Source: Bacteroidota bacterium (GTDB lineage: Bacteria; Bacteroidota; Ignavibacteria; Ignavibacteriales; Melioribacteraceae). From it: 42,899 nucleotides of DNA. Each line of letters begins with the position of its first letter. The stretch's first letter is position 1. Location of the stretch: contig JAHISP010000058.1 in the NCBI GenBank assembly GCA_018818165.1, forward strand, positions 1 through 42,899, in the 5' to 3' direction. Below, one piece after another: positions 20,810 through 35,735 of the stretch. The notes under the pieces are model-generated. The model searched no databases. It was not told where the DNA came from and saw only the letters and a program-made list of their open reading frames with translations. A program made the translations under genes and the position numbers.

Positions 20810-21103
20810 AACTACCTTTGTATTATACTATATTTTAGTCCCAACGTTTTTCAGCATACTGTAATTAACTTTACTTTATACTGAGGTCAAACGACATGGT
20901 GCATTTTTGTTGTTAGTATATTTAATTTGCAATTTAACAATATATTCATTCTAATAATTTTAATATTCTAAGAAACGTATCTTCACAAATACCCTACAAA
21001 TTTCCCACAAAACAACTTATCTTCTGCTTTTCTTTAATTTAAAATTAAAGAAATAAATTTATAAATACAAAACATTTAATAACAATTATTAAATGTATTA
21101 ATA
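20810..21103. other. Boundary region between ATPase operon and prophage, with two palindromes
   Basis: About 290 bp with no gene. It holds an A/T palindrome with 12-bp arms TTTCTTTAATTT and AAATTAAAGAAA (21029-21053) and a perfect 11-bp hairpin, ACATTTAATAA / TTATTAAATGT with a CAA loop (21072-21096). The left prophage end is likely here. I found no copy of the tRNA-like sequence present at the right end. Confidence 0.45.
21072..21096. terminator. Perfect 11-bp hairpin downstream of the portal transcript
   Basis: The arms ACATTTAATAA (21072-21082) and TTATTAAATGT (21086-21096) pair perfectly around a CAA loop, just beyond the end of the minus-strand portal/terminase operon. It is AT-only, so it would be a weak intrinsic terminator; it could instead mark the element's end. 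Confidence 0.35.
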
Positions 21104-21232
21104 TTACTTAATATCATTTACAATGACTATAAATGTTATTAATTCCACTTTCCATTGTCCGTGAAATGCTTTGGTTTTTGGTCACCATTCCACGATTAAA
21201 GCTCCTTCGTACTTTTTGCCTTTGTGACACAT
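21104..21232 (-). pseudogene. Small phage ORF interrupted by an in-frame TGA
   Basis: Just downstream of the portal on the minus strand, an ATG at 21230-21232 begins MCHKGKKYEGALIVEW, then TGA at 21182-21184. The same frame continues PKTKAFHGQWKVELI... to TAA at 21104-21106. Both halves look protein-like in composition. It may be the last piece of a larger phage gene or a small ORF broken by a nonsense change. No family recognised. Confidence 0.35.
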
Positions 21233-21235
21233 TCT

Positions 21236-22477
21236 TTATTTTACAATTTCGTTTTCTGTTTTTTGTTTTATTCTTAATTCAGATGTCTCTAGTTCAAAAT
21301 CTCCACTACTTAAATTATACTTCTTCATAAAGTATTCTTTCGTAAACTTAACACCAATTTCACTTAACATTTTATCCCTATTCGCTGTCTCTTCCGTTAT
21401 CTGCTCTTTCTTAGTCAACTTAACACGAATCTTCTTATCGTGGTTGCTGAGCGAAGTGGTCATTGAGCTTTGTCGAAATGTCGAAGTGTGGTCACTGAGC
21501 GGAGTCGAAGTGCCATAGTTCAACTCTACATAATAATCAAACATTTGATTTATGCAGCTCTCTATAAGTTTTTTGTCGCTTACTCCAATGTACTCTAACA
21601 TCGACCTATGTACGTCACTTGCTTTATAACTTCCAGATGTACCAACATCAACAGTTAAGGTAACAGAAAGGACAGCTTTCGATATTTCTTTGTTCTGGAA
21701 TTCGCTCATCTTTTCAAACAATTGACCGACTTCATAACTCGTTTGCTCTTTTATTTCTATTGTTTCAGATATTTTTCTCGTAGCTACATTACTATCAATC
21801 ATTTCAAGTAAATTATTTATTACTGCTTCTCTTTCTATTTCTGTTGCTGAATCTGAAACGACTCCAATCAAATAGGGAATACCGAATTTTTCAATCAACT
21901 GCATCCAGCTTTCAACTGTTGTTTGTTTTATTTTTACTGGCCAGTAACATTTACTCAATATTTTTTCACCATATGGATTATCAAACGTTGGCTTATGTTG
22001 TGCTAACAAAAATTTATATTTCGGTATTTCTAATAACTTACCTTTTTGCTTCGCTCCTTCTATTATCTTTAGATTATTATCACCATCAAATGCAAACCAT
22101 TCTAATGGCTTCGCTTGTATTTTTATTGGTACTAACTTACCGCCTTTTTTCTCCCAGATTATTTCACTTACATTGTAACCAAACAAGATTGAATCAAGAA
22201 TTTGACTCCCCACTATCTGCAGCGGAATGCCTCTCATTATTTCTATCCCTTCTTTTCGAAGTTCATCATTCTCGCTTTCAACTTCCCATCCCATTTGGAG
22301 GACTTGCATTTTCCTTTGCAATATCGTTGCTGTTAAATGAGGATCAATCAACAAATCTTTATATGCAGATATTCCTCCTCTCTCCGCCAATATTTTATCA
22401 GGATCCGGAAGGATTCCACCAATCATATTAAAAAATGTATTCTCCCTTTTCAAATACTCCCCAAATAACTTACTCAT
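21236..22477 (-). CDS. Phage portal protein, Mu gp29-like (DUF935 family)
   Basis: 413 aa, preceded by AGGAGTTTTT. The sequence matches the Mu gp29/DUF935 portal pattern: an early SAYKDLLIDPHLTATILQRK segment, LQMGWEVE, then the core FGYNVSEIIWEKKGGKLVPI and a GIPYLIGV segment. Portals form the dodecameric ring at the capsid vertex through which DNA is packaged and ejected. Near residues 322-345 an odd segment (TPLSDHTSTFRQSSMTTSLSNH) is encoded antisense by three copies of the 24-bp dispersed repeat. It is therefore an in-frame insertion near the C-terminus. Downstream of the terminase on the minus strand, the order terS-terL-portal is normal for Mu-type heads. The C-terminus may be slightly shortened. 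Confidence 0.85.
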   Translation of the reverse strand: MSKLFGEYLKRENTFFNMIGGILPDPDKILAERGGISAYKDLLIDPHLTATILQRKMQVLQMGWEVESENDELRKEGIEIMRGIPLQIVGSQILDSILFGYNVSEIIWEKKGGKLVPIKIQAKPLEWFAFDGDNNLKIIEGAKQKGKLLEIPKYKFLLAQHKPTFDNPYGEKILSKCYWPVKIKQTTVESWMQLIEKFGIPYLIGVVSDSATEIEREAVINNLLEMIDSNVATRKISETIEIKEQTSYEVGQLFEKMSEFQNKEISKAVLSVTLTVDVGTSGSYKASDVHRSMLEYIGVSDKKLIESCINQMFDYYVELNYGTSTPLSDHTSTFRQSSMTTSLSNHDKKIRVKLTKKEQITEETANRDKMLSEIGVKFTKEYFMKKYNLSSGDFELETSELRIKQKTENEIVK

Positions 22478-22529
22478 AAAAACTCCTATATTATTTCAAA
22501 ACATTTTATTCAATTTCTTTTCTAAATCC

Positions 22530-22690
22530 GACCTTGAAAATATTTCGTTAAGAAATTTGAGTAGTGAAGCGTTAAGCAGAAAATGCTGTTTGAGTATCCC
22601 AGTCTTTTTTGGGATACGAGTTCATTTTCTGTAGCGTAACGAATCAAATTTTAGAAATATTTTCGTAGTCTTGAACTTTTGCTTCTTTTC
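22530..22690. repeat. Long imperfect palindrome, copy 1 (about 160 bp)
   Basis: Lies between portal and terminase. The first half (GACCTTGAAAATATTTCG...GCAGAAAATG) pairs imperfectly with the second half (CATTTTCTGTAGCGTAACG...AAATATTTTCGTAGTC). A nested hairpin at the apex has GTATCCCA and TGGGATAC. A near-identical copy in the same orientation is at 30131-30290, so it is a dispersed element rather than a local terminator. It is a candidate MITE-like or structured RNA element. Confidence 0.75.
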
Positions 22691-22708
22691 TTTCAAGAGA
22701 AAAGAAGA
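22689..22708. repeat. Simple CTTTTCT hairpin (uninserted form)
   Basis: TTTTCTTTCAAGAGAAAAGA forms a short hairpin at the end of long-palindrome copy 1, with flanking CTTC and AG extending the stem. At 30281-30334 and 30346-30394 the same outer stem carries an extra internal hairpin, so this copy represents the simpler form. Confidence 0.5.
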
Positions 22709-22713
22709 TATAA

Positions 22714-24006
22714 CTAATAAATTTTCCTCCTAACATATTTCTTCACCGTCAATTTCGGAATCTCCACTTGTGGACGATTCCTCAAATATTCTAATGCTTG
22801 ACTCATTGAGTCCACCATATCGTCAAACTCACCATTAGGAAAATCTTCACACTCATTCAAGAATTCATTTACATGATCCATCAAAACATATAATGTCACA
22901 TTCCCGCTTTCTATGATTGGCGTAATACTATGCACACGACTAACCTTATCACTACTTACTTTAATAGCTTTTATCGGCAATGTCGTTTCTCTATTCAATT
23001 CTTGAATTAAACTAATCCCGCTTGCTTTGTCCTCTATGATTATTTCATTGGGCTTGAATTCATTATTCAACTCAATTACTTTTCGCTTTAGTTCCGGGAA
23101 TTCTAATCTCTCTCTGAATATATTTATCAATTGATACCTATCTCTGAATACTTGCCATGTCGTACACACAGAATAATCATTCTCCTCATTCTTCTTAAAT
23201 GCTGTATCCCAACTTTGCAAAACATAAGGCTTGTTTTGTCCGTTACTTAAACTTGATGTTACATCAAACCATTCTCTTTTTATTATCCTATCGGTGTTAG
23301 CATCTACAAACAAACCATATATTTCTTGGTCTCTAAGTGCTGGTGATATTTCACTTGCCAATTCATCAATCTCATCTTTATCCAACATGGGATTATCATA
23401 ACTGGAGAAGTTTAACGTACACCAGTTTGATTCAATTTCATCTGCTTCTGGAAATAAATCACCTTTCTTTGCAAGTGTATAGAATAAATGTTCTTTCCCT
23501 TTGTACTTTTTGCCTTTTGGTGTTCCACCAATTATCGCTTCTGCTTTGTAATCCAGCATCATTGGTCTAATTGTTTCCAACCATAGACTGGGGTTCCGCA
23601 AAATAATTCCAGCTTCATTCAAAATTACTAACGTGTAACCAAATCCCTCAATATTCTCCGGTCAGTCAGCACTCCTAAAATCTATTATTGATTCTATTTC
23701 TGTTATAATACTTATTTCATTATTTGTCTTGTTCCATTGGTATGTTCTTTGGGGAAGTCTACTAAGTATTGGCATCCCATATCGCTTAATGTATCTCTGA
23801 ATATTTGAATAAGTTGTGTCAACCCACAATATCTTTTCTCCATTTGGATTCTTTGGATTCCAAGCCCTGTCAATTGCATATTTCATCATCCCATGAGTTA
23901 AACCAAAACGCCTTCCTTTATGAATTACCTTAAATCTTTTTTTTGTTCTGAAAAATATTTCTCTTTGGTTTTCATGATATTCCAGATTTAAAGGTATTTT
24001 AGCCAT
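22714..24006 (-). pseudogene. Phage terminase large subunit broken by an in-frame TGA
   Basis: The start is taken at the ATG 24004-24006 (MAKIPLNLEYHENQ), overlapping the terS stop by 8 nt. The frame reads to codon 115, where TGA (23662-23664) interrupts IDFRSAD/PENIEGFGYTLV, then continues unbroken to 22714; total 430 positions. Motifs are a Walker-A-like GRRFGLT in the first part, and in the second part Walker-B-like LVILNEAG and the RNase-H nuclease acidic residues QSWDTAF, IIIEDKASG and GEFDDMVDSMSQAL. Related terminases often have Arg in this ADRPEN position, so CGA to TGA is the simplest change. The stop separates Walker A from Walker B, so neither product alone could package DNA. TGA is a normal stop in nearby phage genes (29324-29326, 30668-30670), arguing against recoding. 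A TTG at 23620-23622 could restart only the C-terminal part. Confidence 0.85.
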
Positions 24007-24367
24007 TTTTTTTAACCACTTTCTTTTTAGTTTTTTGTTTATCTGGTTTGTCATTTTCAAATTCTTTAATACTTCTGGTAAATATAATCTCGTCTGTATT
24101 ATGTGTTTCTACCTTATCCGTTTGCCCCAATAAGTTCTTTCCTAACCATATTTGCATTACAAAACTTCCATTCAAAGCAGATCGATATTGTGCTCTCTTC
24201 AATGAGGTTTTGACGTACTCTTTCCCTTTTGTAATCTCATCGGCATAATTACGTTGTAAAGTTCTTTCACTTATCTTAACTATTCTTGATATTTCTTCAA
24301 GACTACAGTTCAAACCTGCCAATTCCATTATTAATTCCTTATCTGCTGTTTTCTTCGGCCGTGCCAT
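23999..24367 (-). CDS. Phage small terminase / helix-turn-helix packaging protein
   Basis: 122 aa. The N-terminus MARPKKTADKELIMELAGLN and CSLEEISRIVKISERTLQRNY form a helix-turn-helix of the kind found in small terminases of Mu-like and Bacteroidota prophages. It is followed by the typical SLKRAQYRSALNGSFVMQIWLGKNLLGQTDK stretch and a Lys-rich tail. It would recognise the packaging site and recruit the large subunit, whose ATG overlaps this stop (ATGGCTAA). It is first in the minus-strand head operon; the start has a weak ribosome site. Confident as to class. Confidence 0.78.
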   Translation of the reverse strand: MARPKKTADKELIMELAGLNCSLEEISRIVKISERTLQRNYADEITKGKEYVKTSLKRAQYRSALNGSFVMQIWLGKNLLGQTDKVETHNTDEIIFTRSIKEFENDKPDKQKTKKKVVKKNG

Positions 24368-24695
24368 AAACTCAATAATATTTTATGTTATATCTTTTAT
24401 CTTCCATCTTTTAACCTGGCCTCAAGAAATCAGCGATCCTTTGTTTTTTTTCATCTTTTCTTCCTAAAAATATCATCAGCGTTCCTATGCTCTTAATCCT
24501 TAACCTCAACCTTAGCCTTTATCTCAACCTCAATCCGTTAAATCCGCGTGCTATTTATGTTTACATAACATTACTTATTCTTTACTTTGTAATATATAAC
24601 ACTTGACAAAACAATACAATTACTTTATTTTTAATTGCAACTGATATTATTATTGTGATTCTATAAATTATTTAAAAATCATATCCGGGGGGATT
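24368..24695. other. Divergent promoter region between the two halves of the head module
   Basis: 328 bp with no gene. It must drive terS to the left and the protease to the right. It contains a C/T-rich track of near-repeats of CTTAACCTCAACC (about 24496-24536), a related one of which occurs inside the membrane-protein gene at about 29078-29100, and a sigma70-like promoter at 24603-24631. Confidence 0.5.
24603..24631 (+). promoter_or_regulatory. Putative sigma70-type promoter for the capsid operon
   Basis: TTGACA (24603-24608), a 17-nt spacer, then TATTTT (24626-24631), 64 bp before the protease ATG. It is a near-consensus -35 with a weaker -10. The start codon itself follows a G-run ribosome site (CCGGGGGGATT). 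Confidence 0.5.
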
Positions 24696-25730
24696 ATGGA
24701 ACTAGAAATATTTAAAGTCGGAAAACATACTTCATCAAACGGTCTTACTAAGGATTATACTTTAGACGACTTAAACTCAATTATCCTTAATCACACTGAA
24801 CCGACTCCTATTGTTGTTGGGCATCCTAAAAACAATTCGCCAGCTTTTGGGTGGATTAAAAATCTTTTCCTAAAAGGTGAATCTCTTTTCGCTGAAGCAA
24901 GCGATCTCGTTCCCGAGTTCTTGGATTTAGTAAAGCAAAAGATGTATAAAAACCGCTCCGTTTCTCTTTCACAATTGGAAGATGGAACGCTTGCTTTAAA
25001 TCATGTCGGTTTTCTTGGTGGTGCTATGCCAGCCGTTAAAGGTCTTGAAGAATTAAATCTTAATGCAGATGAAGATGCTCAAATCATTCACGAATTTGCT
25101 TTGAGTGTTGAACTTGATGATACAAAAGAAACAGTCTCCCCCTTACCTAGGGGGACGGAAGGTGGTTCAGAAACACAAAAAGAAAAAGAAAAAGAAAAAA
25201 CTTTTTCATTAGAACAGTTTAATTCTTTAAAGTCCGATGTAGCTAAGATTGTTGAATTTATAGAATCTTATCCAGTTCAAAATGTTCAAATTCCTCAATC
25301 TGATTTGCAAGCAAAAATTGATGAGCTTAATCTTAAAATTGATTTAGCTTATTTTCAAAAAAATATCGTTGATAAATTACAACTGGATAATTTAACACCA
25401 GCTATTAAAAATAAAATAATAGCTATTCTCAATTATTTCCAAACACTCGATTTTGCACAGGACCAACAAAGTAAAATAGTTTCCGATTTTCAAGAGCTTG
25501 CTGATTTAATCCAACCTTTTCAAACAGAAGAAATTCTTAAAAAAGTTGTAAAAGTCTCCCCCTTTTCAAGGGGGACGGAAGGTGGTTCCGGGGGTTCCGA
25601 ATTCGACTTGATGAATGTTGACAAAGAATCAATGCAGCTTTTCAATGAAGCTACTCAACTTTCAGAAGAAGAATCTATTTCTTTTAACGAAGCATTAAAC
25701 ATTTTAATCAACAAAAATAGCGAGGTATAA
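24696..25730 (+). CDS. Mu I-like phage protease/scaffold protein
   Basis: 344 aa. The first 125 residues match Mu-type prohead protease N-termini (GLTKDYTLDDLNSIILNH, TPIVVGHPKNNSPAFGWIK, KNRSVSLSQLEDGTLALNHV). Residues 180-290 are charged and coiled-coil-like, as expected for a scaffold domain. Such proteins assemble the procapsid and then cleave it during maturation. Two in-frame insertions of a hairpin repeat give the peptides VSPLPRGTEGGS and VSPFSRGTEGGSGG (25134-25168, 25554-25588), 420 bp apart. They flank the coiled-coil part. It is first of the rightward head operon; the major capsid gene starts 2 bp after its stop. The active-site assignment is not certain. Confidence 0.75.
   Translation: MELEIFKVGKHTSSNGLTKDYTLDDLNSIILNHTEPTPIVVGHPKNNSPAFGWIKNLFLKGESLFAEASDLVPEFLDLVKQKMYKNRSVSLSQLEDGTLALNHVGFLGGAMPAVKGLEELNLNADEDAQIIHEFALSVELDDTKETVSPLPRGTEGGSETQKEKEKEKTFSLEQFNSLKSDVAKIVEFIESYPVQNVQIPQSDLQAKIDELNLKIDLAYFQKNIVDKLQLDNLTPAIKNKIIAILNYFQTLDFAQDQQSKIVSDFQELADLIQPFQTEEILKKVVKVSPFSRGTEGGSGGSEFDLMNVDKESMQLFNEATQLSEEESISFNEALNILINKNSEV
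25134..25168 (+). repeat. Intragenic GTCTCCCCC hairpin repeat, copy 1
   Basis: GTCTCCCCCTT...AGGGGGACGG followed by AAGGTGGTTC lies inside the protease gene in frame. The same sequence with a TTTTCAAG loop recurs at 25554. The CCCCCTT/AGGGGG arms form a small hairpin. Confidence 0.75.
25554..25588 (+). repeat. Intragenic GTCTCCCCC hairpin repeat, copy 2
   Basis: Second copy, 420 bp after the first, read in the same frame (SPFSRGTEGGS). It is followed by an extra GGGGGTTCCG. It differs from the first mainly in the loop, as expected of a mobile hairpin element. Confidence 0.75.
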
Positions 25731-25732
25731 TC

Positions 25733-26668
25733 ATGCCTGGAACATTAGATGCAAGAAGAATCGTTGACCCAGTTCTAACTCAGTTAGCGCGTGGTTATTC
25801 AAATTCTGGCTTAGTAGCCAACTACTTATTCCCTTTAGTTTCTGTTAGTAAAGAGGCTGGTAAAATACCTCAGTTTACTAAAGAAGCTTTCAAAATCTAT
25901 AACACAGAAAGAGCTATTAGAGCTAATTCTAATCGCATCAATCCAACCGTTAATACTTCAATAGAATTTGTTCTTTCTGAACATGATTTGGAATATCCTC
26001 TCGATTATCGAGAAATTAACGAGGATATGCTAAATCTTAAAATGCGTGCGACTAACGTAGTTACTGATGCTATCGCACTGCGTAAGGAAAAAATTTGCGC
26101 TAATATGGCTCAAGACCCAACTAATTTTGCTACGACAAATAAAGTTATTTTAGCAGCCGCTGATCAATTTAATGTTGCTACCTCCGACCCAATAACAATT
26201 ATCGATGCAGCTCGTTCTTCTGTCCGTTCGCAAATTGCTAAAAATCCTAACGTTATTGTAATTTCTAATGATGTTTTTGTTGCTCTCAAAAATCATCCTT
26301 CAATTACTGATAAGGTTAAATATACTCAACATGCTGTCATCACTGCTGATTTGCTTCGCCTACTTTTACAGTTCGATGCTCTTTATGTAGCTTCCGCTGT
26401 TTATGAGGATGATAACGGAGTTCTTCAAGATGTTTGGAATGATACTGTTGTTCTCGCTTATGTGCCCGAAGCTCGCTCTTCTAACGGTTTACAAAAAAGG
26501 ACTTTCTACGAACCAAGTTTTGGCTACACTTTGCAAATGAAAAATTTCCCAATCGTTGATACTTATGATGAAAAAGGAAAAGTTAAAATCGTTCGTAATA
26601 CAGATTTATTCGTTCCTAAAATCGTTGGTGCTGATGCTGGTTTTTTAATAATTGATTGTTTGGCATAA
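25733..26668 (+). CDS. Phage major capsid protein
   Basis: 311 aa, preceded by GAGGTATAATC. The sequence follows the pattern of HK97-fold major capsid proteins of the Mu/lambda-E-related group. An N-terminal arm (MPGTLDARRIVDPVLTQLAR) is followed by LFPLVSVSKEAGKIPQFTKE, then ANSNRINPTV, and later the P/A-domain segments KNPNVIVISNDVFVALKNHP and VWNDTVVLAYVPE. The C-terminal part (YEPSFGYTLQMKNFPIVD) is also typical. It follows the protease/scaffold gene directly and precedes decoration-type proteins, the standard head-gene order. Coding sequence is intact and carries no dispersed repeat, unlike its neighbours. Confidence 0.8.
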   Translation: MPGTLDARRIVDPVLTQLARGYSNSGLVANYLFPLVSVSKEAGKIPQFTKEAFKIYNTERAIRANSNRINPTVNTSIEFVLSEHDLEYPLDYREINEDMLNLKMRATNVVTDAIALRKEKICANMAQDPTNFATTNKVILAAADQFNVATSDPITIIDAARSSVRSQIAKNPNVIVISNDVFVALKNHPSITDKVKYTQHAVITADLLRLLLQFDALYVASAVYEDDNGVLQDVWNDTVVLAYVPEARSSNGLQKRTFYEPSFGYTLQMKNFPIVDTYDEKGKVKIVRNTDLFVPKIVGADAGFLIIDCLA

Positions 26669-26680
26669 AGGAGGTAGTGA

Positions 26681-26953
26681 ATGTATATCGTTAAAAGCAC
26701 TCCAATTTATTCAAACAAAAAACTTTACAGAGTAGGGGAGATATTCCCTTACTCAGATAAAGAAAAACATTTACTTTGGAATCTTGAAGAGGTCACTGAG
26801 CGCAGCCGAAGTGAAACAACTCCAAATTTATCCGCCAAATCTTCTAAGGCGGGAGAAAAAGTTTCTGAAAATCAAGAAACTACACGGTCACTGAGCGGAG
26901 CCGAAGTGAAAAAAACTAAACGGTTACTGAGCGTAACTGAAGTAAAAAAATAA
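26681..26953 (+). CDS. Small phage head protein with a C-terminus made largely of repeat-derived peptide
   Basis: 90 aa behind a strong ribosome site (AAGGAGGTAGTGA). Residues 1-37 (MYIVKSTPIYSNKKLYRVGE...) look like a genuine small phage protein. The rest contains three copies of the 24-bp dispersed repeat (26791-26813, 26886-26908, 26922-26944), which encode VTERSRSE, SLSGAEV and LLSVTEV. The last runs almost to the stop codon. Roughly a third of the protein is thus repeat-derived. Function unknown; its place between capsid and decoration genes suggests a minor head role. Confidence 0.6.
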   Translation: MYIVKSTPIYSNKKLYRVGEIFPYSDKEKHLLWNLEEVTERSRSETTPNLSAKSSKAGEKVSENQETTRSLSGAEVKKTKRLLSVTEVKK

Positions 26954-26971
26954 TTTAAGGAATTTATAATT

Positions 26972-27337
26972 ATGAAAACTGAACAAATTGGTATCGTAAC
27001 TTCAATTAAAAATGAATCCGGCGACACTATATTAAAAGGTTATTTTGTCAACATGCAAGGTGTACTTGGTAATTCTGAGGAAAATAATAATGAAATGATT
27101 GGTGTTTGCATTGCAGATACAAATGATGGCGAAATGATGCCCGTAGCAGTTACTGGTATAGTCCTTTGCGTAACTGGTGGTATAATATACAAAGGTAATC
27201 CAGTCTCTTGTGATGGTAAAATTTACAAAGTGAATTTTACAGATCCTCCAACAACATCTGAATTGCAAAGAGTTGTTGGTAAAGCTCTTGATGCCGCAAC
27301 TGCAGCAGATCAACTTGTTCGCGTACTTCTAAAATAA
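26972..27337 (+). CDS. Capsid decoration-like protein (DUF2190-type)
   Basis: 121 aa, strongly beta and small-residue-rich (MKTEQIGIVTSIKNESGDTI, MMPVAVTGIVLCVTGG, YKGNPVSCDGKIYKV, LQRVVGKALDAATAADQLVR). The 'v..G.v...g.i..G.pv..d..G' pattern and the terminal 'GxAldaa.agdlvrV' are those of DUF2190-type capsid cement proteins, which sit on the outside of the head. It follows the capsid and precedes an uncharacterised gene, in the expected position. Confidence 0.65.
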   Translation: MKTEQIGIVTSIKNESGDTILKGYFVNMQGVLGNSEENNNEMIGVCIADTNDGEMMPVAVTGIVLCVTGGIIYKGNPVSCDGKIYKVNFTDPPTTSELQRVVGKALDAATAADQLVRVLLK

Positions 27338-27368
27338 TATTTCCGTCCATTAAGGGAAGGAGGACTAA

Positions 27369-28169
27369 ATGAGAAAGTTTAAAGAATATTTGAAAATGTT
27401 CCACCCAAGCGGTTTGGTGGATAAAGATTATTTACAAGAAAATGCTGCCCCCTCAATCGTTCCTAATACAATTGTAATCTATACTCTTTTAGGTGCTGTA
27501 ATTTCTTTAACAGATTTAACAGAAGTTTATGAAAATACTGTTTCTGGCGATCTTGTAACCGTTAATCCCGGTACTTATAATATTGGCAATAATTCTATTC
27601 AATTAAAAGACGGTGTTAATTGGAACTTTATTGGTGTCCCAACTATTTCAAGTGATTCTGCCAATGGAACATTCATAGATGCTGGGATTGCTGTAGATGT
27701 TAATTTTAATGGCAAATTAGTAATAGTAAATACTAATTTATTTTATAATAGAATCAACTTAACAACTAATGATTCAGAAGTCCATGGCTTTACCTTAAAA
27801 TATTATATTGATTTTATCGTATCATCTGCTGGTGTTGAAATAATTTCAACAAATGTAAATGAACTAGGCTTTCCTGCACCTATTCCTACGTGGGTTTCTA
27901 AAGCTATTTTAACATTCCCTGTAAATGTTAAAACGAATCTATATTATAGTTCGCGCTTTAGAGCAAAAGTTCTCGGTAGCTATTCGGGATTTTATACATA
28001 TTTATTGCAAGACGATGCAACTCTTTTATTCTCTCGTCCTTCATTTCCGTCGCAATCTGTATTAAATATTGTCTTCACTAATATTTTAACGGGCGCTCTA
28101 CATACTGTACTTTCTGATGAATTTAGTGCTTCATTGCTCTTGGAACAAATTTTTGATAAAGCTCATTAA
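27369..28169 (+). CDS. Uncharacterised phage protein, beta-helix-like N-terminal half
   Basis: 266 aa behind AAGGAGGACTAA. Residues about 60-145 (VYENTVSGDLVTVNPGTYNI, LKDGVNWNFIGVPTISSDS, NFNGKLVIVNTNLFYNRINL) have the short repeated strands of a right-handed beta-helix, as in phage tail-spike or head-fibre proteins. The C-terminal half is a mixed domain I do not recognise. Position after the decoration gene suggests a head fibre or appendage. Function inferred. Confidence 0.5.
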   Translation: MRKFKEYLKMFHPSGLVDKDYLQENAAPSIVPNTIVIYTLLGAVISLTDLTEVYENTVSGDLVTVNPGTYNIGNNSIQLKDGVNWNFIGVPTISSDSANGTFIDAGIAVDVNFNGKLVIVNTNLFYNRINLTTNDSEVHGFTLKYYIDFIVSSAGVEIISTNVNELGFPAPIPTWVSKAILTFPVNVKTNLYYSSRFRAKVLGSYSGFYTYLLQDDATLLFSRPSFPSQSVLNIVFTNILTGALHTVLSDEFSASLLLEQIFDKAH

Positions 28170-28208
28170 CAAAATTATTAACTATTTAATTCAAAAACGG
28201 TGCTTAAC

Positions 28209-28254
28209 GGTTGCTGAGCGTGGTTACCGAGCGGAGTCGAGGTAGAGCCGAAGC
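28209..28254 (+). repeat. 24-bp repeat copy interrupted by a second 24-bp copy
   Basis: GGTTGCTGAGCG (28209-28220) and GAGCCGAAGC (28245-28254) are the two halves of one repeat unit. Between them, 28221-28244 is exactly 24 bp of a different variant (TGGTTACC...CGAGGTA). Removing it restores a perfect unit. Confidence 0.85.
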
Positions 28255-28422
28255 ATGGTTGCTGAGCGAAGCCGAAGCATGGTTGCTGAGCGAAGCCGAA
28301 GCATGGTTGCTGAGCGAAGCCGAAGCATGGTTGCTGAGCGGAGCCGAAGCATGGTTGCTGAGCGGAGCCGAAGCATGGTTGCTGAGCGGAGCCGAAGCAT
28401 GGTTGCTGAGCGGAGCCGAAGC
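28255..28422 (+). repeat. Perfect seven-unit tandem array of the 24-bp repeat
   Basis: Units start at 28255, 28279, 28303, 28327, 28351, 28375 and 28399, each 24 bp (ATGGT + TGCTGAGCGRAGCCGAAGC). The first three have GCGAAGCC, the last four GCGGAGCC; there is no other variation. The array lies in the leader of the 123-aa gene, ending 26 bp before its ATG. It has no spacers, so it is not CRISPR. Confidence 0.95.
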
Positions 28423-28448
28423 ACCGTTTCTTAAATTGTGATTTTATT

Positions 28449-28820
28449 ATGTCTGATACCGAATATAAACTTAAAAGTGGAATTATCGTTGACATCAACA
28501 ATCTTAGTAATCTTAATGCTGAAGATAGGATTGAATTATTCGAAACTCCGTTTAATCTTTACGAAGGATTACTTCTTAAAAATGATTTATCTGAAATTAA
28601 AGTTTCTCTTTCTGATGCACTTGCTTTTATCAAAAACCACGACTCAATTTGTCCAGTTTCTAAATCTTCGATTATTAGTACAATTGATTCACGCTTAAAG
28701 ACTAACATTAAGGAATCTATTCTTACATCTGGTAATATCGCAAAAGCTATTACTGCAATATTTTTCCTTGTCGCTGGTTTTGGTGCGCTTTTTTTTTTAA
28801 TCATTCAGCAATTAAAATGA
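28449..28820 (+). CDS. Small phage membrane protein, function unknown
   Basis: 123 aa with a weak ribosome site. The N-terminal 90 residues are soluble (MSDTEYKLKSGIIVDINNLS, ...SLSDALAFIKNHDSI). A single membrane segment lies near the C-terminus (AKAITAIFFLVAGFGALFFLI). The C-terminal anchor suggests a peripheral inner-membrane protein, possibly related to lysis because an endolysin follows two genes later. The 24-bp tandem array sits immediately upstream. Confidence 0.5.
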   Translation: MSDTEYKLKSGIIVDINNLSNLNAEDRIELFETPFNLYEGLLLKNDLSEIKVSLSDALAFIKNHDSICPVSKSSIISTIDSRLKTNIKESILTSGNIAKAITAIFFLVAGFGALFFLIIQQLK

Positions 28821-28849
28821 ATCTCTTTTTTTTATAACTTGGATTTGAA

Positions 28850-29326
28850 ATGATAACTCTATTGCTTTACATTTTGTTTTGGTTCGTTGTTTACTTCATT
28901 GAGGGAACTCATGACGCATACATAACAAAAGAAACAAATGAACATCCGCCCGCAAAAAATTCTTATCTTGCAAACTACTATAAAGACAAATGGCATACTT
29001 GGGATTCTTACCAATTCGCTATTTGGCATACTGTAATTGCTTCACTCCTTGCTATCGCAATGTCGTGTTCGCAATTCTTAACCTTAACCTTATCCTTAAT
29101 CTTTGTTTCCGTTTCAATAAGAATAGTTGCACACGATTTATTTTATGATTTAGGAATGAATCGCTCAATTTTTACAATCCCTACTAGTGAGGGCAAATGG
29201 GACTGGTGGGACCGCTTCATTTCTTGGCTCGATAAAAAATGTTTTATCCATCCGTTTTATTTACGATTCATCCCGCTTTTTTTCTCAATCTCTTTCCATT
29301 ATTTATTTTTCTTGAGTGATTTATGA
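28850..29326 (+). CDS. Polytopic membrane protein upstream of the endolysin
   Basis: 158 aa with about four hydrophobic segments: ITLLLYILFWFVVYFI at the N-terminus, WHTVIASLLAIAMSC, FLTLTLSLIFVSVSIRIV, and a C-terminal FIPLFFSISFHYLFFL. The loops contain many Trp and His (KDKWHTWDSYQ, EGKWDWWDRFISW). Its TGA overlaps the ATG of the GH108 endolysin gene (ATGA). That coupling suggests a lysis-related role, possibly holin-like, but it is longer than most holins and I recognise no family. Confidence 0.5.
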   Translation: MITLLLYILFWFVVYFIEGTHDAYITKETNEHPPAKNSYLANYYKDKWHTWDSYQFAIWHTVIASLLAIAMSCSQFLTLTLSLIFVSVSIRIVAHDLFYDLGMNRSIFTIPTSEGKWDWWDRFISWLDKKCFIHPFYLRFIPLFFSISFHYLFFLSDL

Positions 29327-29907
29327 ATGAATTATTTTTAATTTCTCTTGCAATACTTCTTAAATTCGAAGGCTTTTATTCAAATGATCCAGTCGATAAA
29401 GGCGGTGAAACTTATCGCGGAATTTCTCGTAATAACTTTCCTAATTGGTTAGGCTGGTTTATAGTCGATTCAGCAAAAGATTCAAAACAATTTCTTGCAA
29501 TACTAAAAGCTAACTTAAAACTTGAACAGCTGGTCCTTGATTTTTATTACGCTGAATTTTGGCTTAAAATGAATTGTGATTTGATTGCTGACCAAAGTCA
29601 AAGCATCGCATCAGAACTTTTCGAGCTTTCTGTTCATGCTGGTATTGCTCGAGCTACAATCATTTTACAAACTACTCTTAATATTCTTAATAATAATCAA
29701 AAGCTTTATCCAGATATTGACACGGACGGAATCTTTGGGAATGATACACTTGCAGTTTTGCAAACTGCTTTTTCTAAACAGTCTTTCAAAAGAATTTTTA
29801 ATGTCATTAACATTTTACAAGGTGCTTTTTATTCCGAGCTTATGCTTAACAATCCAGTTTATGAAAAATACATTGGCTGGTTCGATAGAGTGGTTATTGA
29901 GCGTTAA
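29323..29907 (+). CDS. Phage endolysin, glycoside hydrolase family 108 with peptidoglycan-binding C-terminus
   Basis: 194 aa. The N-terminal motif FEGFYSNDPVDKGGETYRGIS is diagnostic of GH108 (zliS/secretion-activator type) lysozymes: the Glu in FEG is the catalytic acid, followed by D-P-x-D-x-GGET-x-GI. The central part (ELSVHAGIARATIILQTTLN) and the DTDGIFGNDTLAVLQT segment match the helical C-terminal peptidoglycan-binding domain. It cleaves the glycan chain of peptidoglycan to release virions. It lacks a signal peptide, so a holin is needed to export it, probably one of the small membrane proteins around it. Confidence 0.88.
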   Translation: MNELFLISLAILLKFEGFYSNDPVDKGGETYRGISRNNFPNWLGWFIVDSAKDSKQFLAILKANLKLEQLVLDFYYAEFWLKMNCDLIADQSQSIASELFELSVHAGIARATIILQTTLNILNNNQKLYPDIDTDGIFGNDTLAVLQTAFSKQSFKRIFNVINILQGAFYSELMLNNPVYEKYIGWFDRVVIER

Positions 29908-30032
29908 TCGAAATATTGAGATAATTAAATAATGTTCAAAAGTGAAAAATATCGCAAATATAAAATTTCCATTTTATTGAACCAATTTTATGTTTTGTTT
30001 AACAATGCTCTATCTTTTTGCTCTTTAAAATT

Positions 30033-30091
30033 AACCTTGAAAATATTTTGTTAATACATTTGAGTAGGGAAGCGTTAAGCAGAAAAAGCAT
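30033..30091. repeat. Partial copy of the long palindrome (left arm only)
   Basis: AACCTTGAAAATATTTTGTTAA through AGCGTTAAGCAGAAAAAGCA matches the left arm of the element at 22530 and 30131, then diverges into TCTTTTGG. It is a truncated copy. Confidence 0.7.
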
Positions 30092-30130
30092 CTTTTGGTT
30101 CGTTTTTCTTTCTCTTTTGCTCTTTAAAAT

Positions 30131-30290
30131 TGACCTTGAAAATATTTCGTTAAGAAATTTGAGTAGTGTAGCGTTAAACAGAAAAAGCTGTTTGAGTATC
30201 CCAGTCTTTTGGGGATACGAGTTCTTTTTCTGTAGCGTAACGAATCAAATTTTAGAAATATTTTCGCAGTCTTGACCTTTTGCTTCTTTT
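30131..30290. repeat. Long imperfect palindrome, copy 2 (about 160 bp)
   Basis: Matches 22530-22690 almost throughout in the same orientation, with small differences in the apical loop (CAGTCTTTTGGGGATACG against a T-richer version). It preserves both arms and the nested apical GTATCCCA hairpin. Confidence 0.8.
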
Positions 30291-30394
30291 CTGTCAAAGC
30301 TTGTCCCGAACGCTTTCGGGAAGAAAAGAAGAGATAAACAATTGCTACTTTTCTTTCAAAGTTTATCCCGAACGCCTTCGGGAAGAAAAGAAGA
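30281..30394. repeat. Two nested hairpins (CTTTTCT outer stem with TCCCGAA inner stem)
   Basis: At 30281-30334 and 30346-30394, outer arms CTTTTCT and AGAAAAG enclose an inner TCCCGAACGC(C/T)TTCGGGA stem. The copy at 22689 has the outer stem alone, so the inner piece looks inserted. Confidence 0.65.
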
Positions 30395-30451
30395 GTAATA
30401 AAAGAAAGTATAAACAAATATTTAATAAAAATAATCGGAGTTTCTAAAACA

Positions 30452-30670
30452 ATGCTCAAAAGCAGAAAATATATCGTTTGGCTTTCTTCGCTTTTTGTTT
30501 TCGTTTTTATCGTTTGCCTCGAATTATTCTTGAAGCGTGAAAATCTTTTCATTTCTGAATTAGGTGTTGCTCTTGGTATTATCAGTGGAACTTACCAGAC
30601 TTCAAACATATTTCAAAAGAAATTTACTAATGATGAGAATATCGATAACACCAGGTTACCCAAACCTTGA
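30452..30670 (+). CDS. Small two-helix phage membrane protein (holin candidate)
   Basis: 72 aa with CGGAG about 12 nt before its start. Two hydrophobic segments are visible: IVWLSSLFVFVFIVCLELFL and LGVALGIISGTYQTSNIF. Its TGA overlaps the TTG start of the following gene (30667). The size, two helices and place downstream of an endolysin resemble class II holins. No signature motif is present, so this is a candidate only. Confidence 0.45.
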   Translation: MLKSRKYIVWLSSLFVFVFIVCLELFLKRENLFISELGVALGIISGTYQTSNIFQKKFTNDENIDNTRLPKP

Positions 30671-31155
30671 AAAACTTAAATTACATATTAATTCTGCTTT
30701 TGGCTGTCGCAATATTTTATCATTTGTTTTTCCCAAATGTTGTTGTTGATGATCAAAGAGTTTTAATTCCCGGCGACACTATCACAACTGTAATAAATCA
30801 AAAACAATTTGATTCACTTACTTACCATTTCAAAGCAGAAATTGAAAGAATAAAAAAAACAAAAACCGTTTACCGTGTCGGTAAAACCGACACGTTGAAA
30901 GATACAACTTACATTTTTTATTCAACTCGTTTTAATCTTGGTGATTCAACTCTCGGAACTTCTGGTAAGGTTATTTTCGATTTTTCTGAATTTACTTTCG
31001 ATTCAATTCAATATCGTTATCCCGAAAAAATAAATTCTACAATCGATACTCTCAAAATAATAAAAACGGTTGCTGAGCCTGCCGAAGCATTTTATTTGGA
31101 TGAATGGTTTTATTCAACGCTTGCTCTTTTTGTTTTACTTTTATCTTCAATTTAA
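30667..31155 (+). CDS. Membrane-anchored phage protein, possible spanin-like
   Basis: 162 aa starting at TTG 30667, overlapping the previous stop (TTGA). An N-terminal membrane segment (LNYILILLLAVAIFYHLFF) is followed by a periplasmic-type region with a short charged helix (FKAEIERIKKTKTVYRVGKT) and beta strands, and a C-terminal hydrophobic end (WFYSTLALFVLLLSSI). The coding sequence carries a perfect 9-bp hairpin (30874-30894: CGTGTCGGT/ACCGACACG) and one 24-bp repeat (31068-31089, encoding AEPAEA). Rz-like topology makes a spanin possible, but no lipobox partner is seen. Confidence 0.45.
   Translation: MKNLNYILILLLAVAIFYHLFFPNVVVDDQRVLIPGDTITTVINQKQFDSLTYHFKAEIERIKKTKTVYRVGKTDTLKDTTYIFYSTRFNLGDSTLGTSGKVIFDFSEFTFDSIQYRYPEKINSTIDTLKIIKTVAEPAEAFYLDEWFYSTLALFVLLLSSI
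31068..31089 (+). repeat. 24-bp repeat copy inside the spanin-like gene
   Basis: GGTTGCTGAGCCTGCCGAAGCA, a diverged copy read in frame as VAEPAEA. The terminal TGC and GCA triplets are complementary as in other copies. Confidence 0.8.
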
Positions 31156-31223
31156 TCTTAAATTTTCTTCTTTTCGTTCTGTTTTTCTTATGTTGTTTCC
31201 ATGTTTTTTCTTAGGATTATTTT

Positions 31224-31402
31224 ATGTCAGATCTCTTAATTAATATTGCTTTTTTATGGTTGCAATCCTTATTGCTCTTTGGTTCAGTTCTCTCTTCTGT
31301 TTTTGGTTCAAATAAATAGATGATTCAACTTTCGATACGATTTACAAATCTAAAGAAGAATTCACTTCTTATCGTAAAAAACATAATATTAAGATTGACT
31401 AG
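31224..31402 (+). pseudogene. Tiny frameshifted membrane peptide gene
   Basis: ATG at 31224 (after TTAGGATTATTTT) opens 31 residues with one hydrophobic helix (IAFLWLQSLLLFGSVLSSVF) ending at TAG 31317-31319. A -1 shift continues as DDSTFDTIYKSKEEFTSYRK to TAG 31400-31402. The second part has protein-like composition. It may be a broken small gene; low confidence. Confidence 0.3.
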
Positions 31403-31486
31403 TTTTTGAAGCTCTGTAATCGTTTCTAAACAACTTATATTTATTTTGATAGGACTTTCGGGCGTTTTAACGGGCTTTCCAGCTCC

Positions 31487-31579
31487 AACACGTGTAATAG
31501 CGTCTTAAATTTCCATAATTTCTTTATATCCCATTGCTTTACTCTTGTCATTGCTAACAAGGAGATTATTACACGTGTT
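31487..31579. repeat. Perfect 13-bp inverted repeat
   Basis: AACACGTGTAATA (31487-31499) and TATTACACGTGTT (31567-31579) are exact reverse complements, separated by 67 bp. Each arm contains the palindromic ACACGTGT core. Confidence 0.8.
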
Positions 31580-31615
31580 CCCGCTTCAATCCCTAACGCA
31601 AGGTCAAGAGCATAA

Positions 31616-32180
31616 AAACAATTGTTGTGGAAACACAAATGTTTTTACTAAAACAAAACATCAAAGGCAGCACACATATTTTTTGAGGAACAAAAATAAG
31701 TGCGATTTTTTATTATCTTTCTGCAATTCCGTTTCGTTTCCTCTTTCCGTTAAATTGTTCAGCGCAGTTTCAAAACTGGTAGCAACGGATAAAACCATTC
31801 CGCCGCTTCTCAGTTTCTCAACTAAACACGCTTCACAAATAAACTCTTAATATTGTCTTGTTGGTCTATGTTCTTAAAACAAAAAGGCACCCAAAAGTTT
31901 TGTTGAGGAACACAAAACCTTTCAGCTTTTCCAATTTACAAGAGCATAAAAAACATCTTAACAACAATGTTTTTTTACAACACATAAAACCACAGTTGCA
32001 CCCGAAGGCTTTTACGCTTTGGAAGGCTAAGCCTTCGGTTTTGAATTATTTGCAAAACAAATCATTTTTTCAAATCTCTATTAAGAACATAAAAACAATT
32101 GTTGAGGAAACACAAATGTTTTTACAAACACAAAAGCACAATGCCAAAACAAACATTTGCTAAGGAACACAAATAATTGT
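31616..32180. repeat. Array of hairpins with conserved T(G/A)AGGAA(A)C loop and covarying stems
   Basis: Five members: near 31620 (stem AAAACAATTGT, loop TGTGGAAAC), 31675 (TATTTTT, loop TGAGGAAC), 31890 (AAAGTTTTGT, TGAGGAAC), 32095 (AAAACAATTGT, TGAGGAAAC) and 32145 (AAAACAAACATTTG, TAAGGAAC). In each, the right arm complements the left although stems differ. Linkers such as CAAGAGCATA and AAAACAAAA..GGCA recur between hairpins. Confidence 0.65.
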
Positions 32181-32574
32181 TTTGCCTTTTAATTACTGCT
32201 CGCTCCATTGTTTCGTGATTGCTCCGTGCATCTCTTCCATTCGTTCACCTCAATTTATTTGTAGGAAATATAATAAATTGGGATTCTCTCATTCCCGCAG
32301 TGCTCTCCGCAAATAGACTCAACAACTCCGCTCGCCACTTCCCCGACCACCACCCAAAAATCAAGAACAAGGTCAAAAGATGGGCGTAATGCTTAGCATT
32401 CCGCGTTTATCGTTGTTACTTAATTATTATGCTAATTTACCGTTCGGCGTGGCGTTCGCTCCGCTCCTTGCCCTTGCCTCACTTTGTGGTAGTCCTAGCC
32501 AAAAAAGTGCAAAACCAAAAACACCAAAACAAAAATTCAAAAAAGAACTACCAAAAGCTAAAAAAAAGGGTCAA

Positions 32575-32640
32575 AAAAGCAAGGGTATACAAGCGGTGCA
32601 AAAACCGCACCGCCCTTGCTTTTCCGCTTCCTTTTTTTTT
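32575..32640 (+). terminator. Strong double hairpin followed by a T-run
   Basis: Outer arms AAAAGCAAGGG (32575-32585) and CCCTTGCTTTT (32613-32623) enclose an inner stem GCGGTGC/GCACCGC (32593-32599, 32607-32613). A run of T follows at 32632-32640. It is the best intrinsic-terminator candidate in the prophage and closes the structured region. Confidence 0.65.
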
Positions 32641-32732
32641 AAGGCGCTTTCAGTTCTTTTTTTAATTTTTTGTTGTTTTCGTTTTTTTCTTTTTTTTTGT
32701 TGGCGGCGGCGGTCGTGGCAAAATCAAAAACA

Positions 32733-32978
32733 ATGCAAAAGGTAAAAGCAATGGTTATCGCAAATTTCAAAAATATCAGCTCTAAAAAACTTGGGTTCAT
32801 TTGTTCGCTTGTTGTTTTCAATCATTCAAAAAGTTTTTCTGTTTCGGTCTGGTCTGCTAAAGGTCTTTTTGGCAAAACAGCTTTTAAAACAAAAGAGCAA
32901 GCTTTTAATTTTTGCGCTTTTCTTGGTGTTTCTAAATCTAAAATAAATTTAACAAATCAACTTCCACTTTTTAAATAA
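32733..32978 (+). CDS. Small phage accessory protein, unknown
   Basis: The credible coding part begins at ATG 32733 or, with a better ribosome site (AAAAGGTAAAAGCA), at 32751; it ends at 32978. The 75-81 residues (MVIANFKNISSKKLGFICSL..., SVWSAKGLFGKTAFKTKEQA) show alternating strands and helices like a small DNA- or RNA-binding fold. The upstream extension of the frame reads through the T-rich terminator and is rejected. Its stop overlaps the next ATG by one base. Family not recognised. Confidence 0.5.
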   Translation: MQKVKAMVIANFKNISSKKLGFICSLVVFNHSKSFSVSVWSAKGLFGKTAFKTKEQAFNFCAFLGVSKSKINLTNQLPLFK

Positions 32979-33319
32979 TGGGGTCTATTATGTTAACTCT
33001 AAATCATGTTTCTGTTGCTTCTTATGCTCTTAAAAATCATTGCTCTTTTATCGGTGGTATTCCTTATAATTCTGTTATTAAAGGTGTTAACGGTAAACTT
33101 GTTTTTATGTTCAAACCTCAGCATTTCGGGAATGAATTTTTTCAATGGATTAGGATGAATTTTGATTCTAACCTTTACGAGGAAAAAGCTTTGCAATATA
33201 AAGGCATTACATACCGCTCAATTTTCTTAACCGTTCCGCAAAAAGTACAAACAAAATTCCTTCTCTCTTTTCGCCAGTTCTCTAAAAACTCAAATCAATT
33301 AGTAACATTTTTTAATTAA
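32978..33319 (+). CDS. Small phage accessory protein, unknown
   Basis: 113 aa starting at ATG 32978 (overlapping the preceding TAA by one base) or at ATG 32990. Mixed alpha/beta sequence (MLTLNHVSVASYALKNHCSF, YKGITYRSIFLTVPQKVQTK) with no catalytic motif. It belongs to a plus-strand run of small genes before the Sak4-like ATPase, probably early or replication-accessory genes. Function unknown. Confidence 0.5.
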   Translation: MGSIMLTLNHVSVASYALKNHCSFIGGIPYNSVIKGVNGKLVFMFKPQHFGNEFFQWIRMNFDSNLYEEKALQYKGITYRSIFLTVPQKVQTKFLLSFRQFSKNSNQLVTFFN

Positions 33320-33334
33320 ATAAAAGGTGATAAA

Positions 33335-33682
33335 ATGGAAGCGACTAAAAAACCTATTTCTTTACTTGATGCTTTATTTCAAGTCTTCAACGCTCAAGTA
33401 GTTTCTTTAAATGATAATGCAAATATATTAAAGCATCAAAAAACTATTTCTGATTCTGTAGAAAAACAAAGAAACATTAAAAAAAGTTCAATTGTTGCTT
33501 TGGTTAATTTTTTAGGCTGCTCAACAGAAAATGAATTTCAAGAAATTTATGGTGAGTCTCTCGGCTCTCATCTTTGGGCAAAATTCTACAATAACGGCAA
33601 ATACTCCTACAACTTCTTAACCGAAGTTTCAAACCACAACTTAATAATTTTGGAAAACTATCTTAAAAAAGGAGATTACTAA
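33335..33682 (+). CDS. Small phage accessory protein, unknown
   Basis: 115 aa behind AAGGTGATAAA. Mostly helical (SLLDALFQVFNAQVVSLNDN, KKSSIVALVNFLGCSTENEF). No motif recognised. Tightly spaced with the ArdC-like gene downstream (1 bp between stop and next ATG). Confidence 0.5.
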   Translation: MEATKKPISLLDALFQVFNAQVVSLNDNANILKHQKTISDSVEKQRNIKKSSIVALVNFLGCSTENEFQEIYGESLGSHLWAKFYNNGKYSYNFLTEVSNHNLIILENYLKKGDY

Positions 33683-33683
33683 A

Positions 33684-34064
33684 ATGGAAGACGCAAAAAA
33701 ACAAAAAATCCAAGCGATTTATCAAAGTGTTAAGGATTTAACACTAGAGCAAAAAGATTTTTTAAGCAAAAATTTAATTGTCAAAAATCCAGAAGGTCAT
33801 TTTTTATCTTGCCACAATTGCATAATGCTTGAACGCCAAGCAGCTATGTATAATCCAAATATTTCATTTTCTGTTGTCGGTGGCTTTCAACAATGGCAGA
33901 AACACAACCGACAAGTAAAAAAAGGGGAAAGCGGATTTTATATCGCTATTCCATCTAAAAAAGAAAACGAGCAAAACTCAGAGAATAACGAAGAGGTTTT
34001 CTTTTTTTTCAAAGCCGTTTTTGATATTTCACAAACTGAGGAAATATCTACAGCCGTTCACTGA
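33684..34064 (+). CDS. ArdC-like N-terminal domain, C-terminally cut at a 24-bp repeat
   Basis: 126 aa behind AGGAGATTACTAAA. The segment FSVVGGFQQWQKHNRQVKKG...GFYIAIPSKK and FKAVFDISQTEE is characteristic of the ArdC/DUF1738 N-terminal ssDNA-binding domain found on phages and plasmids. Full ArdC proteins continue with a metalloprotease domain that is absent. The frame ends in a TGA supplied by a 24-bp repeat at 34056-34078 (the residues before the stop are TAVH). The repeat may therefore have truncated the protein or replaced its natural end. It could still bind ssDNA near the Sak4-like protein gene. Confidence 0.65.
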   Translation: MEDAKKQKIQAIYQSVKDLTLEQKDFLSKNLIVKNPEGHFLSCHNCIMLERQAAMYNPNISFSVVGGFQQWQKHNRQVKKGESGFYIAIPSKKENEQNSENNEEVFFFFKAVFDISQTEEISTAVH

Positions 34065-34078
34065 GCGGAGCCGAAGTG
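34056..34078 (+). repeat. 24-bp repeat copy that supplies the ArdC-like stop codon
   Basis: GTTCACTGAGCGGAGCCGAAGTG, with complementary CAC/GTG ends. Its TGA stops the ArdC-like frame. Confidence 0.85.
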
Positions 34079-34103
34079 TAACTAAATATTTATTGTGGTG
34101 TGT

Positions 34104-34126
34104 GGTTGCTGAGCGGAGCCGAAGCA
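34104..34126 (+). repeat. 24-bp repeat copy flanked by an 8-bp inverted repeat
   Basis: The repeat core lies between GTGGTGTG on the left and CACACCAC on the right, which are reverse complements and overlap the repeat ends. It sits between the ArdC-like gene and the 62-aa gene. Confidence 0.75.
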
Positions 34127-34156
34127 CACCACTTCATTTTTTTATGAGGTACTCTA

Positions 34157-34345
34157 ATGGAAAAGGATTTATTAATGCAGAACTTCTTTCTTTTGCTCGA
34201 ACTTATTGAGGACAAAAACTATATCGCTGAAATTATTGGAAATTTATTCACTTATCTAACAGATAAAGAGCAGGAAAACTTTGTCGCGTTCTCTATTGAT
34301 GATATGGTTGAAAACTATGATTTACATAATATTATTAATTCTTAA
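34157..34345 (+). CDS. Small acidic phage protein, unknown
   Basis: 62 aa behind GAGGTACTCTA. Helical and acidic (FLLLELIEDKNYIAEIIGNL, FTYLTDKEQENFVAFSIDDM). It lies 15 bp before the Sak4-like gene and probably shares its transcript. No family recognised. Confidence 0.5.
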   Translation: MEKDLLMQNFFLLLELIEDKNYIAEIIGNLFTYLTDKEQENFVAFSIDDMVENYDLHNIINS

Positions 34346-34360
34346 CTAACGAGGTATAAA

Positions 34361-35467: not shown

Positions 35468-35655
35468 AAAGAAACCAAAGAATCTTTAATGAAGTAAAAA
35501 GATAAAAATAGTTATAAAAAAATGTTAAATAAACTAAATTAGTGTAAAAACACTATAACACTATTATAACACCTTTTGTAAACGAATAGCAAAAATACAG
35601 AAATAAAGCTCAAATATAGTGCAAAAACAGCACAAATACGCACTGGTAGCTTACT
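35468..35655. other. Right prophage flank
   Basis: About 190 bp AT-rich, without a gene. It contains short repeats of GTGTAAAAACACTATAACACT type (TAGTGTAAAAACACTA, about 35541-35556, is a hairpin) and GTGCAAAAACAGCAC (35620-35634). Both are short stem-loops just before the tRNA-like sequence, as expected of an attachment region. Confidence 0.4.
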
Positions 35656-35695: not shown

Positions 35696-35701
35696 CAAAA
35701 T

Positions 35702-35735
35702 AAAAGCTCATTATTACCTAAATAATGGGCTTTTT
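35702..35735 (+). terminator. Intrinsic terminator after the tRNA-like fragment
   Basis: AAAAGCTCATTATT (35702-35715) pairs with AATAATGGGCTTTT, one wobble, loop ACCTA, ending in TTTTT. Confidence 0.75.

Follow-up and report, generated by a model that had tools for sequence, protein, structure and literature searches.

A 24-nt unit that lies complete inside another copy of itself, in a prophage-like block of a Bacteroidota genome, is probably a very small non-autonomous mobile repeat that inserts precisely and prefers the apices of hairpins, including the hairpins of its own copies. The unit is exact, its stem covaries, and nesting in its loop is recurrent; in addition, we found an empty form of the terminator that holds the focal array, as well as a 72-nt filled/empty pair of sites elsewhere in the same genome.

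A 24-nt unit nested within its own copy

The window, i.e., the whole stretch of 42,899 nt that was analyzed, corresponds to contig C7 in an assembly of 4.88 Mb and 105 contigs and has a GC content of 31.8%. The focal array lies within a prophage-like block of the window, in which the following genes could be assigned:

21236-22477, minus strand, portal gene
22714-24367, minus strand, terminase fragments
24696-25730, head protease
25733-26668, major capsid protein
26972-27337, cement protein
29323-29907, endolysin

The array is bracketed by ORFs 27369-28169 and 28449-28820, for neither of which a family search found a family. The terminase large subunit is distributed over two ORFs (22714-23622 and 23662-24060), accompanied by a small-subunit-like ORF (23999-24367), and since the large subunit is split, the prophage may have decayed at that point. 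Repeats of other kinds are present in the same contig. The head protease gene holds another in-frame repeat (25130-25168 and 25550-25588, 89.7% over 39 nt), a region that encodes SPLPRGTEGGS and SPFSRGTEGGS. A 167-nt repeat with 94.6% identity is found beside the terminase (22530-22696) and past the endolysin (30132-30297); it overlaps a tandem at 30009-30188 and is partial in two relatives (L050 and L060). A 1275-aa ORF contains six tandem repeats of 273 bp (3212-4857). A search of positions 20000-36000 against Rfam returned nothing at the repeats and two sub-threshold matches elsewhere, at approximately 32530-32700.

The copies of the 24-nt unit in the window, together with the hairpin that holds the array, are as follows:

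21441..21512, plus strand, second nest, in frame in the portal gene; insert at 21457-21480, tandem unit at 21489-21512
26790..26813, plus strand, in-frame unit within ORF 26681-26953
26885..26908, plus strand, in-frame unit within ORF 26681-26953
26921..26944, plus strand, diverged in-frame unit at the end of ORF 26681-26953
28198..28203, plus strand, terminator hairpin with the array in its loop, 5' arm CGGTGC
28209..28220, plus strand, left half of the interrupted host unit, GGTTGCTGAGCG
28221..28244, plus strand, inserted 24-nt unit TGGT-TACC-GAGCGGAGTCGA-GGTA, full letters TGGTTACCGAGCGGAGTCGAGGTA
28245..28255, plus strand, right half of the interrupted host unit, GAGCCGAAGCA
28256..28423, plus strand, seven in-phase tandem 24-nt units, TGGTTGCTGAGCGRAGCCGAAGCA
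28421..28426, plus strand, 3' arm GCACCG of the terminator hairpin, then TTTCTT
34055..34078, plus strand, single unit that overlaps the end of ORF 33684-34064
34103..34126, plus strand, single unit in a terminator-like hairpin; arms at 34095-34102 and 34125-34132, then TTCATTTTTTT

The focal host unit is broken at GGTTGCTGAGCG|GAGCCGAAGC. An initial annotation of this DNA had claimed that deletion of exactly 24 nt restores the host, which was borne out, as the joined halves give the unit that is repeated in phase at 28256-28423. It had also placed a complete unit at 28221-28244, which stands, with the ends TAC..GTA, which do not: the insert reads TGG...GTA, with TACC and GGTA forming the stem arms inside it. 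The arms of the terminator enclose 217 nt, corresponding to 25 + 8 x 24, and in the predicted fold of the array the outer stem of the terminator is kept. With at most two mismatches allowed, the core GAGCGGAGNCGA occurs 16 times in the window, compared to 1.18 expected and to 5 in the largest of 100 shuffles. The whole assembly contains 42 core matches, and the reversed control of that search gives 3.

The seven in-phase units directly 3' of the nest are likely to have originated by slippage. That tandem slippage alone is the source of both the array and the nested appearance is hardly credible, as it would keep the phase and would not produce half a unit, a different unit and then the other half, and as the focal insert is unlike its host in stem and loop.

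The stem of the unit covaries

The insert consists of YGGT followed by NNNY-GAGCGNAGNCGA-RNNN, i.e., a 4-nt 5' tag, a 4-bp stem and a 12-nt loop. We investigated covariation in 307 distinct copies from 157 sources, comprising the window and fetched loci. The stem arms (positions 5-8 and 21-24) are fully paired, with G-T allowed, in 261 of the 307 copies, compared to a mean of 54 and a maximum of 75 in 1000 shuffles; because the copies are related by descent, the shuffles overstate the significance and this comparison is not a probability, and the nest searches and the Y-R condition of the pattern select copies, a selection that shuffling leaves in place. Several pair types are seen at every stem position: the first pair is C-G in 118, T-A in 107, G-C in 42 and A-T in 7 of the 307 copies, and the second is G-C in 108 and A-T in 97. 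The loop is mostly GAGCGNAGNCGA (183 tagged copies) and the tag is TGGT or CGGT in 190 of 307, while GTCA precedes the stem in 14 of 307, a minority that may be closer to the CGTC REPs discussed below.

Folded as DNA, the common unit forms its 4-bp stem plus two pairs further in, closed by an apex of three bases; this structure is weak and no better than those of shuffles. Folded as RNA, the common unit prefers another structure and the nested insert forms the stem. Folding energies were not significant for single units, for the 48-nt composite or for the array, and the case for the putative hairpin is therefore covariation among copies, not energy.

Nesting recurs in other genomes and in viral contigs

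Across the 4.88 Mb of the assembly, the nested pattern turned up four times and its reversed control never, compared to a chance expectation of approximately 0.002 nests for 42 copies inserted randomly with 6-bp targets; one insert type, with a CATT/AATG stem, accounts for three of these four, so the independent events may number only two. In a sample of the phylum, 10 nests including our own four were detected in 6 of 395 genomes (reversed control 0), and searches of named genome contigs and of viral contigs gave at least 117 and 5 nested stretches, respectively. By our reading of their titles, 64 of the 80 nest-bearing contigs listed are of Bacteroidota type; also among the matches listed are Treponema/Spirochaetaceae, Chlorobiota and Calditrichia, and one nest in Nostoc (L133). 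Cyclobacterium qasimii and Winogradskyella psychrotolerans are examples of culturable carriers among them. An array type unlike the 24-nt tandem was seen in genome G035 (contig C1, 598477-599270 and 602421-602808), in which copies of the core motif are mostly 74-75 bp apart.

The search for further self-nested copies, as suggested in the initial annotation, thus yielded four in the genome itself and 133 distinct matches in the fetched loci. The pattern left the gaps free and allowed lengths of 34-45; 77 of the 133 matches have a length of 39 and 39 a length of 38, so that 116 correspond to a 15- or 14-nt host (TGAGC...CGAAG) plus 24. In some of the 38-nt matches the host letters differ from GAGCYTGTCGA, and the 133 include irregular lengths (e.g., L096, L105 and L106, high-GC actinobacterial matches of length 35) that are probably due to chance. 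Counts of 123 and 128 nests given elsewhere in this text come from patterns that differ from the 133-match search. Removal of 24 nt leaves a 12- or 11-nt loop in 107 of 123 tagged nests, and without the insert the host stem is fully paired in 103 of 128 (shuffles: mean 35.7, maximum 51). The proposal of a precise 24-nt module is supported by both these restored stems and the match lengths.

Host and insert stems are unlike each other in 113 of 128 nests, and slippage therefore offers no explanation of nesting. The same count bears on whether nesting took place only a few times, long ago, with the composites subsequently carried from repeat to repeat by homologous recombination or gene conversion. 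The composite with the CATT-stem insert does recur, being present in the portal gene, twice on contig C73, in genome G002 and in L049, as such spread would have it; given the many combinations of host and insert stems and their occurrence in several phyla, we consider this origin of the nests quite improbable.

Loop insertion is a preference rather than a rule

We then compared the nests with 117 isolated copies. Eight of these lie in an outer perfect stem of at least 6 bp (300 shuffles: mean 2.1, maximum 6) and 17 in one of at least 5 bp (mean 7.9, maximum 18). The cases with at least 6 bp include palindromes in L083 and L148, which we take to be REP types, as well as the hairpin at 34095-34132, which resembles a terminator. 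With 8 of 117 in such stems, most isolated insertions are not in such loops, and universal hairpin targeting for isolated copies was rejected. The unit prefers loops strongly where its own copies are the target, and weakly elsewhere. The earlier claim that the element targets its own sequence holds insofar as nesting is far above chance, but isolated copies, the terminator loop and the loops of other palindromes are occupied too. No preference for T runs was seen around the 117 isolated copies (T5 in the right 25 nt in 14, in the left in 13). The next letters are CC in 8 and ACC in 10 of 63 isolated tagged copies, and in 12 and 0, respectively, of 123 nested ones.

Insertion had been suggested always to follow TGAGCG, which did not hold. 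In 71 hosts with a 12-nt loop, the break is located at GAGCGN|AG in 49, at GAGCG| in 12, at GAGCGNAG| in 9 and at GAGC| in 1, with the proviso that a shift of the break by one base to the left is possible where the insert ends in the same base that precedes the break. Of 36 hosts whose middle has four bases, 26 are broken past the third (e.g., GAGCCTG|T). Since the nest pattern was restricted to the loop by design, separate arm controls were run, using stricter patterns from which few matches were to be expected. The left-arm control gave no left-arm break in 395 genomes (two matches, both the already counted GAGC-junction nest); in viral contigs it gave two matches, one a true nest at G|AGC inside the 12-nt loop (L225) and the other not a nest. 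The right-arm control, run on viral contigs only, gave four matches. Three of them do not represent nests, and the fourth, L228, is a doubtful case in which GAG follows the insert, as expected of a broken right arm, but the arms pair at only two of four positions. Apart from this doubtful case, no clear stem break was detected by the left-arm control in the 395 genomes and viral contigs or by the right-arm control in viral contigs.

The machinery might instead read a short sequence such as GCGN|AG, which is present in most copies, and not the loop as such. We regard such sequence-specific insertion as unlikely, even though 49 of the 71 breaks occupy the single position GAGCGN|AG, because other breaks occur at GAGCG| and GAGCGNAG| and, in shorter loops, are of the GAGCCTG|T type (26 of 36), because GCGN|AG is missing from the TTAA(Y)C loop of the terminator and from the palindromes around the L083 and L148 copies, and because no clear left-flank consensus was found in the 63 isolated tagged copies.

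Empty and filled sites

The initial annotation had named, as the finding that would speak against it, orthologs that all carry the composite with no empty form. For the array, empty forms exist. At the array site, a plain hairpin (CGGAGC-TTAACC-GCTCCG, then CTTTTTTT; folding z -2.87) is found in the phage contig L050, and the IMG/VR sequence L052 has an empty terminator, CGGTGC-TTAATC-GCACCG (folding z -3.40), the same letters as in contig C101 of our genome (46336-46357). As L052 and C101 agree at the terminator, the genome holds an empty and a filled terminator in two related prophages, which share 76% identity over their matched part. Counted by eye, the one-unit form of the terminator exceeds the empty loop by 19 nt and not by 24. 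A viral scan for the terminator string returned 18 stretches, two of which are phages already in the comparison (L209 and L214); six of the other 16 were read, and none of these shows this site's hairpin with its tail. No sequence searched had the focal host unit free of its insert: the only other carrier found (IMG/VR 3300014656_006080) is 100% identical over 11.9 kb, and the region downstream of the array has no match in the genus's other four genomes.

The portal site lacks the unit in L053, in L054 and in four aligned relatives that are more distant, contains a single unit in L052 and is nested in the window and in L049, where it is read through without a break; at the first portal site, the one-unit form has a net gain of 18 nt over the empty form, not 24, again counted by eye. 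A further pair is present within the genome itself, where contig C73 has 72 nt (host, nested and tandem unit, 3 x 24) at the place where C101 reads TCTAATCCG|TTCAATCCGCGTGCTAT; in genome G001, the matching place is filled with 24 nt exactly. Since a repeated phrase flanks both members of the C73/C101 pair, these are paralogous sites; the tags of their host units are CCCG or CTTG, not YGGT. From filled and empty forms such as these, i.e., from sequence comparison, we infer that the unit moves.

Candidate enzymes and a proposed mechanism

None of the nine Y1_Tnp loci of the genome contains the element core (flanks of at most 1.5 kb, less where a contig ends); one weak match with two substitutions in L035 was judged not to be an element. 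Across 58 genomes, copy number does not track the Y1 count (Spearman 0.21, p 0.11), and mobilization by a RAYT was rejected on these two grounds. The Y1 genes of L035 and L038 (contigs C52 and C103 of the genome) are surrounded by other short palindromes that are distinct from the 24-nt element, e.g., CAGTTCACTTTCGTGAACTG and GGCTTTAGCC, and by a GCTCC-TAGGAGCGACATTATG type.

We propose that the 24-nt unit would insert precisely, without evident target duplication, and that its preferred target would be a hairpin apex, its own hairpins included, giving rise to self-nested copies; tandem growth in steps of 24 nt might follow by slippage or by repeated insertion. The exact ends, the lack of evident duplication, the apex targets and the absence of a linked Y1 transposase suggest that the unit is probably moved by an enzyme acting in trans, via a single-stranded intermediate (RNA or ssDNA). 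A more tentative possibility is that structure and not sequence is recognized, so that apex insertion in own hairpins, terminators and palindromic repeats of other kinds, across Bacteroidota, Spirochaetes and one or more cyanobacteria, would be the work of a trans enzyme on folded single strands, possibly of RNA with reverse transcription.

Relation to known repeat families

The SDRs of Nostoc are reportedly 21-27 nt long, dispersed in the genome and precisely inserted. Hairpins with compensatory changes are said to occur in SDR4-6, SDR1 and SDR4 are reportedly nested within themselves, and the eight families are said to be confined to a cyanobacterial subgroup. The unit described here resembles the SDRs in its length of 24 nt, its dispersal (42 core matches in 4.88 Mb), its compensatory stem changes (261 of 307 paired, at most 75 in shuffles) and its self-nesting, both in its own genome and in fetched loci, but has carriers beyond cyanobacteria (64 of 80 listed Bacteroidota-type, one Nostoc), the comparison with the families being one of described features. 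SDR5 is mentioned in PMC4390886, with Elhai et al. 2008 cited.

The CGTC REPs, as described by Di Nocera et al. 2013 (PMC3733652), are short palindromes with an unpaired 5' tetranucleotide CGTC (TGTC, CCTC), A-T pairs at the first and second stem positions, a stem of 8-9 bp, a loop of 4-5 and a CCA tail. They form head-head dimers, with head-tail dimers negligible, their hosts include Bacteroidetes, Chlorobi and Spirochaetes, they have no dedicated transposase, and some are located in genes or within larger palindromes. The 24-nt unit is likewise a short palindrome with a 5' tetranucleotide, has overlapping host phyla and some copies in genes or larger palindromes, and is without a dedicated transposase among the Y1 transposases examined. 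In contrast, its tag is mostly YGGT (TGGT or CGGT in 190 of 307), its stem does not start with A-T (first pair A-T in 7 of 307) and its focal array is head-to-tail. The covarying stem has 4 bp and the conserved loop 12 nt, but the inner loop pairs could count as stem. The unit is also self-nesting, and the word 'nested' occurs 0 times in the text of PMC3733652.

In GTAG REPs (PMC6006769), a GT[AG]G tag stands at the hairpin foot and RAYT/TnpAREP genes are flanked by the repeat; REPINs are treated in PMC3116915. With these, the unit would share a tag with a hairpin and single-strand processing, but has no GT[AG]G tag and does not lie beside any of the nine Y1 transposase genes. Rickettsia palindromic elements, which are mentioned in PMC3733652, insert in frame into genes, a feature common to both, whereas the unit here is 24 nt long and self-nesting. 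As it departs from each of them in one or more defining features, we do not file the 24-nt family under the SDRs or the CGTC REPs; by analogy, it would work like both. Literature searches by motif string returned nothing, and broader ones, judged by titles and the openings of abstracts, turned up no account of the family, a result that makes no claim of absence from print, the original SDR report being outside the comparison.

With more than 100 natural filled sites, it becomes possible to read exactly where a very small mobile sequence begins and ends, outside the group in which such sequences were originally described. What moves tag-and-hairpin repeats that have no transposase also becomes testable, by comparing loop with linear targets. 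Very small mobile repeats like the cyanobacterial ones, it appears, also occur outside that group and nest in hairpin loops there.
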